NCBI RefSeq assembly: GCF_963675165.1
Contig: NC_087383.1
Span: forward strand, 2,014,979-2,078,978
DNA length: 64,000 nt
Reading direction: 5' to 3'
From: Halichondria panicea
Taxonomy: Eukaryota > Porifera > Demospongiae > Suberitida > Halichondriidae
How positions within the stretch are numbered: the first letter of the stretch is position 1; every line of letters starts with the position of its first letter. Positions 9,093 through 64,000 of the stretch are shown in pieces. Position numbers and translations under genes: made by a program. The notes beneath the pieces are model-generated. The model was not told the DNA's origin. It did no database searches and worked only from the letters and a program-made list of their open reading frames with translations.

Positions 9093-12043
9093 ATGGCCAC
9101 TAAAGAGCAGAACCAAGGTATAAAGACTGTCATGTTTCCTATAAAGGATAAACCCAATGATTGCTAAAGCATAAAACCCTCATTGGTGATTGCTAATCTT
9201 GTGTGCTTGCTATCTATTTCAGAGCTCACAATTGACGATCTGAAGACAGAAATGAAACTGACTGATGAGCAGCTCAATACAGCAATAAAGGAACCAGATT
9301 TACCCGAGTTAGCAGCATGTTTCGACAATGTTCACAAAGGCTATCTTGAAAAATTGGAGCTCTCACCTGGAGAGCAAACTGACGTGAGGACTAGAGCATA
9401 TGTAGATGGCACTCTGGCAGGAATGTTGCTGGCTTTGAAATTCTGGATTCTGACCAACAGACAAGACGCCACTTTCCAAGCTCTGCTACTCATCATACTC
9501 TCCCTGCTCAAAGAAGACGTTGCTGTTCGAGTGTGCAAGTACTTGTCTGACAAATGTGAGTCTGTTATGTGAGAGTGTGGTCATTGTGGTACCATACGTT
9601 GTGGGAGTGATTGCAACCAAATAAGGGACTCTTCAACTTAATTGCTATTGTTACACATACAATTCTGTATTAACTATCACCAGGAATAGTACTCACCTAT
9701 TGTTTTGTTTCCCCAGACTCCACCACCTCGTGTCCCCCCTCCCGAGAGAGGGTCCTGCTGAACCACAAGCTGTCCTCGTACAGGGACTACCTACAAAGTC
9801 GCTACAGAGCACGAGTATCCACATCAGCCACACAATGGCCTCCTGTTCCAACAAACAAAGTCTTCAAACTGGCCATGATTCAGAAGGAGAAAATACAGAG
9901 AGGAAGAATCGACGATGAATTTGTTAAACTAACAATTACGGGGAAAATTGATGACATTTTACTTTTAAAGACTCCTGTTAACTTGACTAACATTTTCTCT
10001 GAGATTGGGGATAGACGAAACTTTGTGTTGATTGAAGGAGCTCCCGGCTCTGGCAAGAGCACCCTTGCTCTACACATCTGTCAGGAGTGGGCAAAGGGGA
10101 AACTGTTCCAAAAGTTCGATATTGCAATCCTCGTGAAACTGAGAGATCCCCTTGTTAGAGAAGCAAAGACAATTGCTGACGTACTTCCCTGCATTGATAC
10201 GGCCGTGGCTAACAAGACAGAGGCAGTTATAAAATCACTGTATGGCAAAGGTGTACTGTGGGTGCTAGACGGATGGGACGAGCTTCCTTCTGACCTCCCT
10301 AGAGACTCAATCATCAACAAACTAATTCGACCAGACATGTCACAAAAAGGAGCCCTACACGAATCAGCTGTGATTGTAACATCTCGACCATCATCTTCGG
10401 CTGAGCTCCACCCACTAGTGTCGTCCAGGGTAGAAGTGTTAGGGTTCACTCCACATCAACTAGAACAGTATTTTACCGAGTGTCTGAATGGTGACTCACA
10501 AGCTGTGCAGACTCTACTGGAGAGAATTCGAGAGAACCCAGTGGTAGAAGGTAGCTGCTACCTCCCCCTCAATGCTTCCATCATCGTTAATTGCTTCTTG
10601 TCTGATAACCACTCACTCCCAACATCCAACCACGGGATATTCATATCAGTTGTCCAGAGCTCTCTCAAGAGATACCTCAAGGAGAAGTTGAGGAAGACCA
10701 TTCCAGTGGGAAACATCACATCCCCAGACTCACTGCCCTCGGAAATCAGAACACAGACCGTACAAATGTGTCAACTTGCATATCATGGGATTGAAAAAAA
10801 TAAAGCAACATTTACTGACGGTGATTTGGCCGCTCTTCACATTACGAAGGAGATTTCAAACGTTGGATTATTACAAACTGTTCCCAGCATCATTAGCGAT
10901 GGTGATCTGGTTTACTACTGCTTTCTCCACCTGTCTATTCAAGAGCTACTAGCAGCAATCCACATCTCTCTCATGCCTCCCAAGCAACAAATTTCTGTAT
11001 TCCAGAAGCTCTTCGGGAATCCTCGATTCAGTGCAGTCTTCCAGTTTTATGCTGGTATCACCAAACTGAGTACTAGTAGACCAATCCTCAGTTTGCTACC
11101 TCGATTCTTGTGTCCAGTTCCAGCCACTGTTTTTGATCTGGTCAGAAAGGTTGTCAAAAATAAGAAAGAGAAAGATTATGGTGAGCCGAAGCCCCTTTTG
11201 TTGTCCCTCATCAATTGTTTGTACGAAGCTGAAGACTCGCGACTGTGTGTGTTTGTGGCTAATCTTCTTAATCACAATCTATATCTTGATTACACTACAA
11301 TGAATCCTATTGACTGCCTCTCTGTTGGATATTTCGTATCAGCTTGTTCCAACACCAGTAATGGATTCATACTTAGCCTCAACAATTGCTCTATTGGTGA
11401 CCAAGGCTGCAAATTTCTGGCCCGAGGACTCTCCAAGTGTCCCAACTCTAATAATGATATTCCTACAGCAGGGATACACATCGCTGAGATTATCGAGAAC
11501 ATTAGTTCAATATCTGAATTGAATTTGTCTGATAATGCCATTGGTAACAGTGGGCTTAGCACACTCTGTGATGCCTTGTCAACTAACACATCATTAAAGA
11601 GCCTGAACCTGACCAATTGCTCACTAACAATATCAGACGACAATGGAGCTGCCCTCTATCAACTTCTGAATACAAACAATTCCCTCGAATATCTTAGTTT
11701 GTATGGTAACACAGTGACTAGCTGTCGTCACATTGCTGCTGGACTTGCAGTCAATAAGACTCTGAGAACATTGGACTTGAATTCCTGTGCACTGACTGAT
11801 CAGAGTATCGAGGAGCTATCAACTGGACTGATCAACAAGATTAAAGCACTGTACATATGGGATAATGACTCAATAACAGAAGATGGAATGAAGACGCTTG
11901 CCAGACATCTAACCACCCACTGCTCTGAACTGACAGCATTGTGGATACCCAGACACCTAATATCCTGTATCGAGACAGTATTCAGGGACACTCACAAAGA
12001 GAGGAAGAGAAATGGACTACCCGAGATTTATTGTGTTAATTAG
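9093..12043 (+). CDS. NLR1: Death-fold / NACHT / LRR receptor
   Basis: Model: join(9093-9117, 9223-9555, 9717-12043), 894 residues, GT-AG introns, phase 1 at both joins. Exon 1 encodes MATKEQNQ. Exon 2 (residues 9-119) is an alpha-helical Death-superfamily-like domain with ELTIDDLKTEMKLTDEQL and LLIILSLLKEDVAVRVCKYL. Exon 3 holds a linker, then NACHT with Walker A GAPGSGKS (residues 227-234), Walker B-type LDGWDE (303-308) and the sensor-like VTSRPSSS. At least five degenerate LRRs of the LxLxxNxI/CxL type follow from about 11370 to 11940. NACHT proteins are ATP-dependent oligomerising switches; an intracellular immune sensor role is inference from the family. Compared with NLR2, it has lost 8 LRR codons at 11440-11480 and one LRR pair. 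The start was chosen because the same first exon and donor recur in all five copies. Confidence 0.93.
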
Positions 12044-23521: not shown

Positions 23522-26500
23522 ATGGCCACTAAAGAGCAGAACCAAGGTATAAAGACTGTCATGTTTCCTATAAAGGATAAACCCAATGATTGCTAAAGCA
23601 TAAAACCCTCATTGGTGATTGCTAACCTTGTGTGCTTGCTATCTATTTCAGAGCTCACAATTGACGATCTGAAGACAGAAATGAAACTGACTGATGAGCA
23701 GCTCAATACAGCAATAAAGGAACCAGATCTACCCGAGTTAGCAGCATGTTTCGACAATGTTCACAAAGGCTATCTTGAAAAATTGGAGCTCTCACCTGGA
23801 GAGCAAACTGACGTGAGGACTAGAGCATATGTAGATGGCACTCTGGCAGGAATGTTGCTGGCTTTGAAATTCTGGATTCTGACCAACGGACAAGACGCCA
23901 CTTTCCAAGCTCTGCTACTCATCATACTCTCCCTGCTTAAAGAAGACGTTGCTGTTCGAGTGTGCAAGTACTTGTCTGACAAATGTGAGTCTGTCATGTG
24001 AGAGTGTGGTCATTGTGATACCATACGTTGTGGGAGTGATTGCAACCAAATAAGGGACTCTTCAACTTAATTGCTATTGTTACACATACAATTCTCTATT
24101 AACTATCACCAGGAATGGTACTCACCTATTGTTTTGTTTCCCCAGACTCCACCTCGTGTCCCCCCTCCCGAGAGAGGGTCCTGCTGAACCACAAGCTGTC
24201 CTCGTACAGGGACTACCTACAAAGTCGCTACAGAACACAAGTATCCACTTCAGCTACACAATGGCCTCCTGTCCCAACAAAGAAATGTTTCAAACTAGCC
24301 ATGATTCAGAAGGAGGAAATACAGAGAGGAAGAATCGACGATGAATTTGTTAGGCTATCAATCACAGGAAAAATTGACGATATTTTACTTCAAAAAACTC
24401 CAGTTAACTTGACTAACATTTTCTCTGAGATTGGAAATAGACGAAACTTTGTGTTGATTGAAGGAGCTCCCGGCTCTGGCAAGAGCACCCTTGCTCTACA
24501 CATCTGTCAGGAGTGGGCAGAGGGAAAACTGTTCCAAGAATTCGATATTGCAATCCTCGTGAAACTGAGAGATCCCCTCGTTAGAGAAGCCATTACAATT
24601 TCTGACTTACTTCCCTGCACACACAAAGCGATGGCTAATGAAACAGAAACTGCAATTATGTCACTGTACGGCAAAGGTGTACTGTGGGTGCTGGACGGAT
24701 GGGACGAACTTCCTTCTGACCTCCCTAGAGACTCAATCATCAACAAACTAATTCGACCAGACATGTCACGAGAAAGTCCACTACACGAATCAGCTGTAAT
24801 TGTAACATCTCGCCCGTCGTCTTCAGCTAAGCTCCACCCACGTGTATCGTCCAGGGTGGAGGTGTTGGGGTTCACTCCACATGAACTAGAACAGTATTTC
24901 AAGGAGTGTCTGAAAGGTGACTCACAAGCTGTGCAGACTCTACTGGAGAGAATTCGAGAGAACCCAGTGGTAGAAGGTAGTTGCTACCTCCCCCTCAATG
25001 CTTCCATTGTCGTTAATTGCTTTCTTTCTGATAACCACTCACTCCCCACATCCAACCACGGGATATTCATATCAGTTATCCAAAGCTCTCTCAAGAGATA
25101 CCTCCAGGATAGGTTGGGGAAGACCACTCCAGTGGGAGACATCACATCCCCAGACTCACTGCCCTCGGAAATCAGAACACAGACCGTACAAATGTGTCAA
25201 CTTGCATATCATGGGATTGAAGCCAACAAGGCGACATTTACTGACGGTGATTTGGCCGCTCTTCGCATTACGAAGGAGATTTCAAACGTTGGATTATTAC
25301 AAACTGTTCCCAGTATCATTAGCGATGGTCATTTGGTTTACTACTGCTTTCTCCACCTGTCTATTCAAGAGCTACTAGCAGCAATCCACATCTCTCTCAT
25401 GTCTCCCAAGCAACAAATTTCTGTATTCCAGAAGCTCTTCGGGAATCCTCGATTCAGTGCAGTCTTCCAGTTTTATGCTGGTATTACCAAACTGAGTACT
25501 AGTAGACCAATCCTCAGCTTGCTACCTCGATTCTTGTGTCCAGTTCCAGCTACTGTTTTTGATCTGGTCAGAAAGGTTGTCAAAAGTGAGAAAGAGAAGA
25601 AGTACGGTGAGCCGAAGCCCCTTTTGTTGTCCCTCATCAATTGTTTGTACGAAGCTGAAGACTCGTCACTGTGTGTGTTTGTGGCTAATCTTCTTAATCA
25701 CAATCTGCATCTTGATAACACTACAATGAATCCTATTGACTGCCTCTCTGTTGGATATTTCGCATCAGCTTGTTCCAACACCAGTAATGGATTCACACTT
25801 AGCCTCATAAGTTGCTCTATTGGTGACCAAGGCTGCAAATTTCTGGCCCGAGGGCTTTCCAAGTGTTCACAGAGTGAGATTAGTCTTAATCTTTCTAATA
25901 ATGATTTTCAAGAAGAAGGGATACACCACATCGCTGAGATTATCGAGAACACTAGTTCAATATCTAAATTGGTTTTGTCTTTTAATGCCATTGGCAACAG
26001 TGGACTTAGCACACTCTGTGAGGCCTTGTCAACTAACACATCATTAAAGAGTCTCGATTTCTCTGAATGCTCACTATCTCTCAACGATCACGGAGCAATC
26101 CCTCGACTACTGAGCACAAACACTACTCTTGAAGACCTCACATTGTCACGCAATGTTATTGGTAACACTGAGCTGAAGAATATCTGTGAGGCCTTGTCAA
26201 CTATCACATCATTAAAGAGCCTGAACCTGACCAATTGCTCACTAACAATATCAGACGACAATGGAGCTGCCCTCTATCAACTTCTGAATACAAACAATTC
26301 CCTCGAACATCTTAATTTGTCTAATAACACAGTGACTAGCTGTCGTCACATTGCTGCTGAACTTGCAGTCAATAAAACTCTGAGAACATTGTACTTGGAT
26401 TTCTGTCAACTGACTGATCAGAGTATCGAGGAGCTATCAACTGGACTGATCAACAAGATTGAAAGATTGGACATTGATGGTAATGACTCAATAACAGAAG

Positions 26501-26652
26501 ATGGAATGAAGACGCTTGCCAGACATCTAACCACCCACTGCTCTGAACTGACACGATTGTGGATACCCAGACACCTAAGATCCTGTATCGAGACAGTATT
26601 CAGGGACGCTAACAAAGAGAGGAAGAGAAATGGACTACCTGAGATTGTTTAA
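23522..26652 (+). CDS. NLR2: Death-fold / NACHT / LRR receptor, longest LRR array
   Basis: Model: join(23522-23546, 23652-23984, 24146-26652), 954 residues, all GT-AG with phase 1 joins. Domains are as in NLR1: MATKEQNQ, a Death-fold exon (nearly identical to NLR1), Walker A GAPGSGKS, LDGWDELPSD and VTSRPSSS. The LRR part is the fullest of the cluster. It keeps the segment SQSEISLNLSNNDFQEEG that NLR1 and NLR3 have lost, and it has one additional LRR pair (SLDFSECSLSLNDHG to LTLSRNVIGNTELKN). It most likely represents the ancestral length. Exposed LRR positions differ from NLR1 and NLR3 (see findings). Upstream is a gag-like fragment and then the EFR3 fragment on the opposite strand. Confidence 0.93.
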
Positions 26653-36183: not shown

Positions 36184-39114
36184 ATGGCCACTAAAGAGCA
36201 GAACCAAGGTATAAAGACAGTCATGTTTACTACAAAGGATAAACACAATGATTGCTAAAGCATAAAACCCTCAATGGTGATTGCTAACCTTGTGTGCTTG
36301 CTTATCTATCTTCAGAGCTCACAATTGATGATCTGAAGACAGAAATGAAACTGACTGATGAGCAGCTCAATACAGCAATAAAGGAACCAGATCTACCCGA
36401 GTTAGCAGCATGTTTCGACAATGTTCACAATGGCTATCTTGAAAAACTGGAGCTCTCACCTGGAGAACAAACTGACGTGAGGACTAGAGCATTTGTAGAT
36501 GGCACTCTGGCAGGAATGTTGCTGGCTTTGAAATTCTGGATACTAACCAACGGACTAGATGCCACTTTCCAAGCTCTGCTACTCATCATACTCTCCCTAC
36601 TCAAAGAAGACGTTGCTGTTCGAGTGTGCAAGTACTTGTCTGACAAATGTGAGTCTGTCATGTGAGAGTGTGGTCATTGTGGTACCATACGTTGTGGGAG
36701 TGATTGCAACCAAATAAGGGACTCTTCAACTTAATTGCTATTGTTACACATACAGTTCTCTTTTACTATCACCAGGAATGGTACTCACCTATTGTTTTGT
36801 TTCCCCAGACTGCACCACCTCGTGTCCCCCCTCCCGAGAGAGGGTCCTGCTGAACCACAAGCTGTCTTCGTACAGGGACTATCTACAAAGTTTCTACAGA
36901 GCACAAGTATCCACATCATCCACACAATGGCCTCCTGTCCCAACAAACAAAGTCTTCAAACTGGCCATGATTCAGAAGGAGAAAATACAGAGAGGAAGAA
37001 TCGACGATGAATTTGTTAAACTAACAATTACGGGGAAAATTGATGACATTTTACTTTTAAAGACTCCTGTTAACTTGACTAAGATTTTCTCTGAGATTGG
37101 GGATAGACGAAACTTTGTGTTGATTGAAGGAGCTCCCGGCTCTGGCAAGAGCACCCTTGCTCTACACATCTGTCAGGAGTGGGCAAAGGGGAAACTGTTC
37201 CAAGAGTTCAATATTGCAATCCTCGTGAAACTGAGAGATCCCCTCGTTAGAGAAGCAAAGACAATTGCTGACATACTTCCCTGCATTGATACGGCCGTGG
37301 CTAACGAGACAGAGGCAGAAATAAAATCACTGTATGGCAAAGGTGTACTGTGGGTGCTGGATGGATGGGACGAGCTTCCTTCTGACCTCCCTAGAGACTC
37401 AATCATCAACAAACTAATCCGACTAGACATGTCACAAAAAGGAGCCCTACACGAATCAGCTGTGATTGTAACATCTCGACCGTCATCTTCGGCTGAGCTC
37501 CACCCACGTGTATCGTCCAGGGTGGAAGTGTTGGGGTTCACTCCACATCAACTAGAACAGTATTTTACCGAATGTCTGAATGGTGACTCACAAGCTGTGC
37601 ATACTCTATTGGAGAGAATTCGAGAGAACCCAGTGGTAGAAGGTAGCTGTTACCTCCCCCTCAATGCTTCCATCATCGTTAATTGCTTCCTTTCTGACAA
37701 CCACTCCCTCCCAACATCCAACCACGGGATATTCACCACAGTTGTCCAGAGCTCTCTCAAGAGATACCTCAAGGAGAAGTTGGGGAAGACCACTCCAGTG
37801 GGAGACATCACATCCCCAGACTCACTGCCCTCGGAAATTAGAACACAGACCGTACAAATGTGTCAACTTGCATATCATGGGATTGAACAAAATAAAGCGA
37901 CATTTACTGATGGTGATTTGGCTGCTCTTTGCATTCCGAAGGAGATTTCAAACGTTGGATTATTACAAACTGTTCCCAGTATCATTAGCGATGGTGATCT
38001 GGTTTACTACTGCTTTCTCCACCTGTCTATTCAAGAGCTACTGGCAGCAATCCACATCTCTCTCATGCCTCCCAAGCAACAAATTTCTGTATTCCAGAAG
38101 CTCTTCGGGAATCCTCGATTCAGTGCAGTCTTCCAGTTTTACGCTGGTATCACCAAACTGAGAACTAGTAGACCAATCCTCAGCTTGCTACCTCGATTCT
38201 TGTGTCCAGTTCCAGCCACTGTTTTTGATCTGGTCAGAAAGGTTGTCAAAAATAAGCCGACGATCTTTTTGTTGTCCCTCATCAATTGTTTATACGAAGC
38301 TGAAGACTCGCAACTGTGTTTGTTTGTGGCTAATCTTCTTAATCACTATCTAGATCTTGATCGCACTACAATGAATCCTATTGACTGCCTCTCTGTTGGA
38401 TATTTCGCATCAGCTTGTTCCAATAGCAGTAATGGATTCACACTTAGCCTCAACAATTGCTCTATTGGTGACCAAGGCTGCAAATTTCTGGCCCGAGGAC
38501 TCTCCAAGTGTCCCAACTCTAATAATGATATTCCTACAGCAGGGATACACATCGCTGAGATTATCGAGAACACTAGTTCAATATCTAAATTGGATTTGTC
38601 TAATAATGCCATTGGTAACAGTGGACTTTTCGAACTCTGTGCGGCCTTGTCCACTAACACATCATTAAAGAGCCTGAACCTGCGCAGTTGCTCACTAACA
38701 ATATCAGACGACAATGGAGCTGCCCTTTATCAACTTCTGAATACAAACAATTCCCTCGAATATCTTGATTTGTCTGGTAACACAGTGACTAGCTGTCGTC
38801 ACATTGCTGCTGGACTTGCAGTCAATAAGACTCTGAGAACATTGGGCTTGTATAACTGTAAACTGACTGATCAGAGTATCGAGGAGCTATCAACTGGACT
38901 GATCAACAAGATTAAATCACTGAACATTTATGGTAATGCCTCAATAACAGAAGATGGAATGAAGACGCTTGCCAGACATCTAACCACCCACTGCTCTGAA
39001 CTGACACGATTGTTGATACCCTACCACCTAATATCCTGTATCGAGACAGTATTCAGGGACGCTAACGAAGAGAGGAAGAGAAATGGACTACCCAAGATTA
39101 ATGTTGTTTATTAA
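36184..39114 (+). CDS. NLR3: Death-fold / NACHT / LRR receptor
   Basis: Model: join(36184-36208, 36316-36648, 36809-39114), 887 residues, GT-AG, phase 1 joins. Domains are as in NLR1: Death-fold exon, Walker A GAPGSGKS, LDGWDELPSD, VTSRPSSS and C-terminal LRRs. It shares with NLR1 the loss of 8 LRR codons (38500-38550), so the two are sisters in this part. It has its own deletion in the NACHT-to-LRR linker near 38250 (KNKPTIFLLSL where NLR1 has KNKKEKDYGEPKPLLLSL). Its 5' flank differs from NLR1 and NLR2: no gag-like ORF and no EFR3, but IQGAP exon remnants. Confidence 0.93.
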
Positions 39115-49842: not shown

Positions 49843-50793
49843 ATGGCCACTAAAGAGCAGAACCAAGGTATAAAGACTGTCATGTTTCCTATAAAGGATA
49901 AACCCAATGATTGCTAAAGCATAAAACCCTCATTGGTGATTGCTAACCTTGTGTGCTTGCTATCTATTTTCAGAGCTCACAATTGACGATCTGAAGACAG
50001 AAATGAAACTGACTGATGAGCAGCTCAATACAGTAATAAAGGAACCAGATCTACCCGAGTTAGCAGCATGTTTCGACAATGTTCACAAAGGCTATCTTGA
50101 AAAATTGGAGCTCTCACCTGGAGAGCAAACTGACGTGAGGACTAGAGCATATGTAGATGGCACTCTGGCAGGAATGTTGCTGTCTACTTAATTGCTATTG
50201 TTACACATACAATTCTCTATTAACTATCACCAGGAATGGTACTCACCTATTGTTTTGTTTCCCCAGACTCCACCACCTCGTGTCCTCCCTCCCGAGAGAG
50301 GGTCCTGCTGAACCACAAGCTGTCCTCGTACAGGGACTACCTACAAAGTCGCTACAGAATGCAAGTATCCACATCAGCCACACAATGGCCTCCCGTCCCA
50401 ACAAAGACAATTTTCAAACTAGCCATGATTCAGAAGGAGGAAATACAGAGAGGAAGAATCGACGATGAATTTGTTAGGCTAACAATTACGGGGAAAATTG
50501 ACGATATTTTACTTCAAAAAACTCCGGTTAACTTAACTAACATTTTCCCTGAGATTGAGGATACACGAAACTTTGTGTTGATTGAAGGAGCTCCCGGCTC
50601 TGGCAAGAGCACCCTTGCTCTACACATCTGTCAGGAGTGGGCAAAGGGGAAACTGTTCCAAAAGTTCGATATTGCAATCCTGGTGAGACTGAGAGATCCC
50701 CTCGTTAGAGAAGCAAAAACAATAGAAGATCTTCTCCCTTGTAGGAATTCAACACTGGCATGCCAAATAGGGGCAACAATTATAATTAATTGA
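49843..50793 (+). pseudogene. NLR4: truncated Death-NACHT pseudogene
   Basis: Exon 1 (49843-49867, MATKEQNQ) and the start of the Death exon (49974) are intact. A deletion of about 200 bp then removes the second half of the domain together with its splice donor: the frame runs LAGMLLST and stops at about 50191. The NACHT exon acceptor is at 50275-50276. That frame keeps Walker A GAPGSGKS but stops at 50793, because sequence jumps from inside NACHT to the 3' flank shared with NLR3 (attaattgattgattatt). Walker B, the rest of NACHT and all LRRs are gone. Two independent deletions make function as an NLR very unlikely. Confidence 0.9.
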
Positions 50794-63187: not shown

Positions 63188-64000
63188 ATGGCCACTAAAG
63201 AGCAGAACCAAGGTATAAAGACTGTCATGTTTCCTATAAAGGATAAACCCAATGATTGCTAAAGCATAAAACTCTCATTGGTGATTGCTAACCTTGTGTG
63301 CTTGCTTATCTATTCTCAGAGCTCACAATTGACGATCTGAAGACAGAAATGAAACTGACTGATGAGCAGCTCAATACAGCAATAAAGGAACCAGATCTAC
63401 CCGAGTTAGCAGCATGTTTCGATAACACTGATGATTATCTTGAAAAGCTGGAGCTGTCGCCTGGACAGAAAACTGACGTCAGCGAAGTGAAGGCTAAAAC
63501 ACGTCTAAACCGCACTCAAGCCGGAATAAAACTTGCCCTAGAATACTGGCAGAACAAGAACCAACTACAAGCCACCTTCCAAGCTCTGCTACTCATCATA
63601 CTCTCCCTGCTCAAAGGAGACGTTGCTGTTCAAGTGTGCAAGTACTTGTCTGACAAATGTGAGTCTGTTATGTAAGAGTGTGGTCATTGTGGTACCATAC
63701 GTTGTGGGAGTGATTGCAACCAAATAAGGGACTTTCAACTTAATTGCTATTGTTACACATACAATTCTCTATTAACTATCACCAGGAATGGTACTCACCT
63801 ATTGTTTTGTTTCTCCAGACTCCACCACCTCGTGTCCCCACTCTCAAGAGAGGGTCCTGCTGAACCACAAGCTGTCCTCGTACAGGGACTACCTACAAAG
63901 TCGCTACAGAGAACCAGACTCCACATCAGCCACACAATGGCCTCCCGTCTCAACAAACAAAGTCTTTAAACTGGCCATGATTCAGAAAGAGAAAATACAG
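63188..64000 (+). CDS. NLR5: Death-fold / NACHT receptor, 5' part (cut by window end)
   Basis: Exons 63188-63212, 63320-63658 and 63819 onward, open to the window end at MIQKEKIQ, just before NACHT. Splice signals and phases are as in NLR1. The Death-fold exon is 6 nt longer than in the other copies, and its middle (about 63418-63575) is strongly diverged (FDNTDDYLEKLELSPGQKTD, SEVKAKTRLNRTQAGIKLAL), while both flanks are nearly identical to NLR1. NACHT and LRRs lie outside the window. Confidence 0.88.

Follow-up and report, generated by a model that had tools for sequence, protein, structure and literature searches.

Animal NLRs are often regarded as conserved sensors, plant NLRs use an NB-ARC ATPase, and lamprey VLRs, in which variable residues on the LRR strands form the binding face, are assembled somatically. 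The Amphimedon NLR repertoire (Yuen et al. 2014) is said to be of the same gene class as the sponge genes described here. In the excerpted sections of PMC8226289, the plant hvNLRs (such as RPP1 and RPP13) show periodic entropy spikes in their LRR, with at least 10 positions above 1.5 bits, and their paralogues are often clustered. Fungal NLRs, as treated in sections of PMC4986451, carry highly conserved WD, ANK or TPR repeats with positively selected sites on the concave face and with exchange between members, and the same sections report that no LRR motifs were found. In zebrafish, parts of PMC4852459 describe the NLR-B30.2 genes as a large, largely clustered family in which gene conversion acts differently on the NACHT and on the recognition end; there, B30.2 is the variable and selected domain and the LRRs are not particularly variable. 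Finally, the main text of a 2026 paper on Dysidea avara (PMC12909245), in which the NLR expansion of Halichondria panicea is given as the largest when related to the span of the assembly, is without the terms 'positive selection', 'hypervariab' and 'diversifying'.

In the array described here, which sits on a chromosome-scale contig (C7) of the demosponge H. panicea, LRR entropy spikes periodically as in plant hvNLRs, and 44 columns (27 of them in the LRR) exceed 1.5 bits where the excerpts of PMC8226289 ask for at least 10. In contrast to plant hvNLRs, however, the sponge ATPase is NACHT, with NB-ARC under its cut-off, and hvNLRs are defined, in those excerpts, on near-allelic series across individuals, whereas here paralogues of one assembly were compared. 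The sponge family may work like the plant hvNLRs, yet is an animal NACHT family and not a member of the hvNLRs. With the fungal NLRs (PMC4986451, same sections) it shares hypervariable positions borne by repeats and exchange among members, although the sponge repeats are LRR and not WD, ANK or TPR; like the zebrafish genes (PMC4852459, same parts), it is a large and largely clustered animal family in which conversion seems to act differently on NACHT and on the recognition end, but here the LRR itself varies, and B30.2 was unmatched in six sponge proteins. The sponge NLR repertoires covered in the main text on Dysidea avara (PMC12909245) are of the same gene class as the array. As in lamprey VLRs, the variable residues are those of LRR strands, but the sponge diversity is present in the assembled genome and spread over paralogues. 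Among the literature matches listed, no earlier report of a hypervariable NLR face in a sponge was noticed, the main Amphimedon NLR paper lying outside that scope.

Genes of the array and their paralogues

The window (i.e., the whole stretch of DNA analysed, 64,000 nucleotides long, C7:2014979-2078978) contains three genes, referred to as NLR1, NLR2 and NLR3, and parts of two further copies:

9222..9555, plus strand: matched part of the N-terminal exon of NLR1 (helical domain, no Pfam match; tblastn of residues 1-135 of protein P0004; GTGAGT donor next)
9717..12043, plus strand: large exon of NLR1, with NACHT, helical domains, LRR and a TAG stop codon (the frame is open from 9686 and contains the start of the ORF called at 9875)
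11276..11962, plus strand: LRR region of NLR1, with eight hypervariable strands (11276-11296, 11372-11392, 11510-11539, 11594-11614, 11684-11713, 11762-11791, 11840-11869, 11930-11962)
23651..23984, plus strand: matched part of the N-terminal exon of NLR2 (tblastn of P0004 residues 1-135)
24146..26652, plus strand: large exon of NLR2 (NACHT-LRR in the long form, which has an additional LRR block; the intron's 3' end includes the ATG at 24115)
25702..26580, plus strand: hypervariable LRR strands of NLR2 (25702-25722, 25798-25818, 25960-25989, 26044-26064, 26302-26331, 26380-26409, 26458-26487, 26548-26580)
36309..36648, plus strand: matched part of the N-terminal exon of NLR3 (tblastn of P0004 residues 1-135)
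36809..39114, plus strand: large exon of NLR3 (NACHT-LRR; the intron's 3' end includes the ATG at 36778)
38347..39033, plus strand: hypervariable LRR strands of NLR3 (38347-38367, 38443-38463, 38581-38610, 38665-38685, 38755-38784, 38833-38862, 38911-38940, 39001-39033)
49973..50793, plus strand: truncated fourth copy, with the N-terminal exon and the start of NACHT only, after which the frame stops (tblastn)
63319..64000, plus strand: start of a fifth copy, which runs off the window and continues as L059 (tblastn)

NLR1, NLR2 and NLR3 share one gene plan, i.e., a small N-terminal exon, a GTGAGT donor, a short intron and one large exon. A CCCCAG acceptor ends at 9716, 24145 and 36808, respectively, and since the latter two lie downstream of the ATGs proposed by the ORF finder for NLR2 and NLR3, these ATGs are placed inside the intron end. 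The annotated relatives have ca. 118 extra N-terminal residues, which are largely helical and without Pfam match at E<=0.1, and the corresponding exons are present in the window. NACHT scored 72.5 (NLR1), 77.4 (NLR2) and 71.0 (NLR3) bits against a curated cut-off of 26.7, and was the best match in all three genes, ahead of NB-ARC (15.9 bits in NLR1 and 16.4 bits in NLR2, under the cut-off of 23.5, and absent among the matches listed for NLR3). A C-terminal LRR_6 match scored 37.8, 45.1 and 39.1 bits, respectively (cut-off 23.4), and LRR was the sole repeat type matched in six proteins. NLR1, NLR2 and NLR3 are thus NACHT-LRR genes, with products that, by domain content, are predicted to be intracellular.

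Genome searches for paralogues scored 54 of 340 candidates with NLR2 as query and 62 of 326 with NLR1, so that the family counts are lower bounds. From these, 59 loci (L009-L067) were taken, with at least five further copies lying outside the alignment. The aligned set consists of the 58 loci with a frame running from NACHT into the LRR (1653 pairs), the broken L067 being left out; the frame of L051 has an early stop after codon 823. All but one of the 58 are located on C7 between 1.5 and 4.23 Mb (57 loci), and L018 is on C1. Many of the 66 database proteins compared with the loci were identical to fetched loci, and may represent the same sequences in other assemblies. No viral relatives of the family were confirmed.

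Variability of exposed LRR codons and tests for selection

An earlier note, made on the window alone, had described hypervariable LRR codons in otherwise near-identical NLR genes. This observation is confirmed, and the variability proved to be wider than first described. The peptides quoted are all present, within a few bases of where they had been placed (i.e., YLSLYGN at 11690-11710, TLDLNSCAL at 11768-11794 and ALYIWDND at 11846-11869 in NLR1, with counterparts at 26308-26328, 26386-26412 and 26464-26487 in NLR2, and at 38761-38781, 38839-38865 and 38917-38940 in NLR3), and the intervening TVTSCRHIAA and TDQSIEELSTGLINKI are invariant across the three genes. Over codons 725-825 (303 bp), the proposed skew between NLR1 and NLR3 held, although with 14 replaced codons and 1 silent change instead of some 12 and 2, and all 14 replacements fell at exposed codons, in agreement with their proposed position at the x residues of LxLxx. 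In the same codons, 16 replacements (13 exposed) and 3 silent changes separated NLR1 from NLR2, and 16 replacements (13 exposed) and 2 silent changes separated NLR2 from NLR3. The stretches between strands are invariant as described, but 'nearly identical' was a loose term for the backbone of this trio, with NLR1 and NLR3 differing at 103 alignment codons (counted along the entire open frame, with gaps and some ten intron codons). Likewise, the three quoted strands are variable but not the only ones, as eight LRR strands vary.

Exposed codons were defined as x3, x5, x7, x8 and x10 of LxxLxLxx[NC]x, with five strands found by regular expression, and with three strands, as well as codon 822 in later analyses, added by eye once the entropies had been seen. 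The list holds 36 codons in the pairwise counts and 37 in the codon model; the class referred to as backbone takes in about ten intron codons. When entropy was calculated for 53 genes over 772 columns, 26 of the 27 LRR columns above 1.5 bits were in this list. In the 58 genes, the last three strands had 51, 53 and 51 distinct five-codon motifs and each of the remaining five strands 30-39, and there were 54 distinct strings of exposed residues. The commonest residues in the 14 most variable columns were Y, S, N, R, D, G and W, a usage that may be akin to that of antibody paratopes. Even among pairs with identical flanks (93-114 bases; 53 genes), differences in the hypervariable codons were present in 94 of 97 at strand 5, in 195 of 196 at strand 6, in 252 of 252 at strand 7 and in 191 of 191 at strand 8; at strand 6, where none of 99 flanking bases differed, the difference amounted to a mean of 3.6 of the 5 codons.

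The variable sites were mapped onto an AlphaFold model of P0004, in which eight strands alternate with helices. The mean pLDDT of the model is moderate (69.2), with ten-residue means of 74-97 from residue 711 on and of 39-85 for residues 621-710, which contain the first two LRR strands. With a strand zone made up of each three-residue strand plus one residue ahead of it and four behind it (limits set by the analyst, without use of the exposed list), 24 of the 28 LRR residues above 1.5 bits fell within this zone, which comprises 64 of 259 residues (Fisher p=5.6e-13). From -1 to +4 of the middle strand residue, mean entropy was 1.67, 0.08, 2.17, 0.22, 1.98 and 2.37. Given the repeat type, the hypervariable positions probably face the concave side of the LRR. 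A fold search with the model placed NOD2 and NLRP3 on top, at low TM-scores of 0.40 and 0.30-0.32 (normalised by query).

In the codon alignment and per-site rates of the 58 paralogues, variable sites were not evenly spread and silent changes were not as frequent as replacements. Over the 1653 pairs, pN was 0.355 for the 36 exposed codons, 0.047 for 215 other LRR codons and 0.057 for 527 backbone codons, and pS was 0.161, 0.102 and 0.162, respectively. A self-written, FEL-type site-wise codon model (52 genes; kappa fixed at 2.5; tree built on the non-exposed codons; rates capped at 50 before averaging) yielded a mean beta of 16.2 and alpha of 1.74 for the 37 exposed codons (mean beta/alpha of ca. 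9), vs. 0.76 and 1.44 for the 214 non-exposed codons. In this model, beta exceeded alpha at p<0.05 in 26 of 37 exposed and 9 of 214 non-exposed codons, the p-values being uncorrected for multiple tests and for recombination, which violates the single-tree assumption. The exposed pN/pS of 2.2 over all 1653 pairs is a weaker contrast than that of the codon model. When pairs were binned by backbone pS, exposed pN/pS was 3.3-5.6 (up to 0.06; 58 pairs), 3.8 (0.06-0.1; 83 pairs), 2.7 (0.1-0.2; 1216 pairs) and 1.2 (the 296 most diverged pairs), and this fall with divergence may reflect saturation of replacements.

A tree-free control made use of NNY codons, in which an exchange of C and T at the third base is silent irrespective of the other two. 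For 20 hypervariable columns of this type (53 genes), the pairs that differ amounted to 72% at positions 1 and 2, and to 9% at the third, silent position (median 4%, with 0.27-0.41 in three of the columns); the corresponding third-base figures are 8% for backbone codons and 5% for the remaining LRR codons. Since positions 1 and 2 have the same genealogy as the third base, gene conversion or local hypermutation would not readily yield this pattern, which favours diversifying selection over either of them as the source. Diversifying selection on the exposed LRR codons is, on these tests, strongly supported.

Selection, exchange and mutation as possible sources of the diversity

It is very probable that the array as a whole represents a sponge NACHT-LRR face under strong and sustained diversifying selection, on a backbone apparently homogenised by conversion. 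The concave LRR face would be subject to positive or negative-frequency-dependent selection, and most likely makes direct contact with a variety of microbial or non-self ligands. At exposed codons, point mutations of the ordinary kind would be fixed about nine times faster than silent ones, leaving most copies with an exposed set of their own, and ectopic recombination and gene conversion would shuffle LRR segments and homogenise the NACHT backbone, so that copies keep one signalling module and differ in face. The binding role is suggested by the fold, and both the ligands and the selective agent named here are presumptive. An animal lineage among the earliest to branch may thus use NACHT-LRR proteins as direct, specificity-generating receptors, as plants use hvNLRs, with 37 LRR face codons that on average change about nine times faster than silent sites, on separately homogenised backbones. 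A hypervariable, putative recognition face, a feature known mainly from plants and fungi, is here met in a sponge. This makes testable how animals without adaptive immunity gain specificity, with predicted binding residues defined codon by codon and with natural near-isogenic pairs (backbone matched, face different) at hand.

The same diversifying selection could be driven by allorecognition between sponges and not by microbes. This variant of the main explanation finds parallels in fungal NLR-type proteins with hypervariable repeats that act in incompatibility (in the sections of PMC4986451 used above) and in individual-specific receptor sets in H. panicea, seen as individual-specific receptor expression in its transcriptome (PMC8242945, in part). 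It seems unlikely, however, for a receptor that is presumably intracellular and thus away from the contact surface.

With regard to exchange within the array, 12 pairs had no silent backbone difference; two of these have no exposed difference either, and in the other ten the exposed replacements number 15.5-40.5. L041 and L051 show zero differences over 2.25 kb, 1.6-3.2% in the 750 bp upstream, 5-8% in the LRR (13-21 differences per 250 bases), and downstream of the gene 0.4-1.2% in the first 750 bp and ca. 4% beyond. For this pair, the notion that a backbone-identical pair is simply a recent duplicate was rejected, because the 2.25-kb identical tract adjoins diverged upstream DNA and a diverged LRR. 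L024 and L028 are identical at 1398 of 1400 positions in the 5' flank and at 924 of 934 on the downstream side (132 gap columns), and the stretch in between has 17.5 exposed replacements; L054 and L055 show one difference up to codon 731, followed by 15.5 exposed replacements; and P0004 has no difference from NLR3 over 461 backbone residues, with 22 of 37 exposed residues changed. Identical backbones beside diverged LRRs fit ectopic gene conversion and recombination in the array, conversion being their probable cause. Mutual information between exposed codons (39 short-form genes; adjusted) averaged 0.088 within 5 codons and -0.03 to 0.01 beyond, and this near-zero value beyond five codons could stem from recombination or from saturation.

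Such exchange might even account for the face by itself, if a limited pool of old LRR segments were swapped among paralogues by gene conversion, with point changes not under positive selection at present. Some pairs are indeed mosaics or show identity that breaks off abruptly, and certain strand motifs recur between genes. Nevertheless, shuffling leaves the replacement/silent ratio within codons unaltered, whereas the observed ratio is strongly skewed, and at the last three strands most motifs occur in a single one of the 58 genes, which makes shuffling on its own very unlikely. The reverse case, in which exposed residues are kept (up to 3 replacements), was found in 6 of 1653 pairs, e.g., L014/L015, whose backbones differ by 40 silent and 53 replacement changes, and L016/L019, with 7.5 and 20.5 of these, respectively; some minus-strand members thus do not diversify their face.

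The earlier note had left the choice between diversifying selection and a targeted diversification process. The former was borne out by the tests above; the latter, i.e., a germline mutator dedicated to the exposed codons (through adenine mutagenesis as in DGRs, AID-like deamination or some other route), the outcome of which selection merely tolerates, was not. The DGR signature is NNY, and several columns with a nearly fixed third base (NNC, NNT or NNA) and free first two bases superficially look like it. Exposed positions 1 and 2 also have a spectrum of changes unlike that of third bases in non-exposed codons, with transitions at 0.45 compared to 0.58 and C-to-T at 11 of 822 compared to 92 of 376, although codon and amino-acid constraints differ between these classes too. 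However, silent diversity, estimated only from pairs alike in the first two codon bases, was not clearly raised, with 0.074 beside and 0.065 in exposed codons, 0.048-0.055 elsewhere in the LRR and 0.100 in the backbone. Parsimony points the other way, with 5.2 changes per third base in 28 hypervariable codons but 1.7 in the rest of the LRR (and 14.7 per site at positions 1 and 2), although the third-base changes of the hypervariable codons concentrate where replacements are possible (e.g., codons 565, 707, 788 and 816).

Variation at majority-A positions was 0.03-0.05 in non-exposed codons vs. 0.35-0.40 at exposed positions 1 and 2, and the third A of the hypervariable codon 784 was kept in 58 of 58 genes. 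All 12 base changes occur, with leaving rates per base varying less than twofold. Rather than being confined to template adenines, as in a DGR, changes thus spare A outside the exposed codons and include all 12 types, and a mutator would need to avoid third positions and buried codons. Targeted mutagenesis, whether DGR-like or AID-like, was judged unlikely from the tests of silent sites, adenines and base changes, and together with the NNY result these tests indicate that strong selection is sufficient and a targeted mutator unnecessary. A sponge germline process that renews, with the precision of single codons, positions 1 and 2 of exposed LRR codons, and which would provide a germline-encoded, near-individual receptor repertoire, is therefore disfavoured and, like a dedicated mutator in general, highly improbable.

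Relaxed constraint, under which functionally free exposed residues would drift, is scarcely credible even though exposed surface residues of repeats often tolerate change, and was rejected because under drift replacements cannot outpace silent changes, which is incompatible with the FEL-type beta/alpha unless the silent rate is severely underestimated, and because LRR helix residues, some of which are necessarily surface-exposed, have a mean entropy of 0.29 (117 residues).

Relatives beyond the family

The pattern extends to more distant relatives. In 47 proteins that are 58-69% identical to NLR3 overall, 25 of the 40 most variable positions were in the exposed list, and entropy was 2.55 at exposed, 1.00 at other LRR and 0.75 at backbone positions. 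For NLR genes outside the 58-paralogue family, the comparison covered one family at the protein level, i.e., 39 proteins related to L007 on C13, some of which are from H. panicea. The same pattern was found there, with mean entropies over four strands of 2.09, 3.08, 2.91, 1.12 and 1.70 at x2, x3, x5, x7 and x8, respectively, and of 0.04-0.46 at the conserved positions.

Family members with a conserved exposed face or near-identical counterparts

In the main array of NACHT-LRR genes, backbones are alike and the exposed LRR residues (the x positions of LxxLxLxx) differ, whereas two groups of family loci show the opposite pattern, with exposed residues that are nearly or fully identical and a backbone that differs:

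C7 (NC_087383.1), 3.9-4.2 Mb, minus strand: L014/L015 and L016/L017/L019

Two further pairs within the genome, L044/L045 and L056/L057, were identical over the compared codons or one silent change apart, with partners separated by 200-300 kb. These pairs may have arisen by very recent gene duplication or by conversion, or may reflect a duplication in the assembly. Near-identical database proteins were also found for L020 (P0064), L022 (P0069), L023 (P0063), and L026 (P0067), backbone and exposed residues showing 0-1 differences; these proteins could be alleles of the respective loci, or the same DNA in another assembly.

Variability in the NACHT region and in a second family

A variable block was located in the NACHT region of NLR2, where each position carries a few common residues; the LRR codons, in contrast, vary more freely:

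window 24601-24660: variable block, codons 163-182 of NLR2

Similar periodic hypervariability was seen in a different NLR family, the C13 family of L007 relatives (P0123-P0161), in which variability peaks at x3 and x5, followed by x2.

Truncated copy and 3′ ends

The window also holds a truncated NLR copy:

window 49973-50793, + strand: N-terminal exon plus the beginning of NACHT, after which the reading frame stops

Among the copies, the stop position and final residues vary (window 12023-12043 in NLR1, and likewise at the other 3′ ends) via indels within AT-rich TTAATTGATTGATT-type repeats, and the 3′ flank holds further pieces similar to the end of the coding sequence (ACCCGAGATTAAT).
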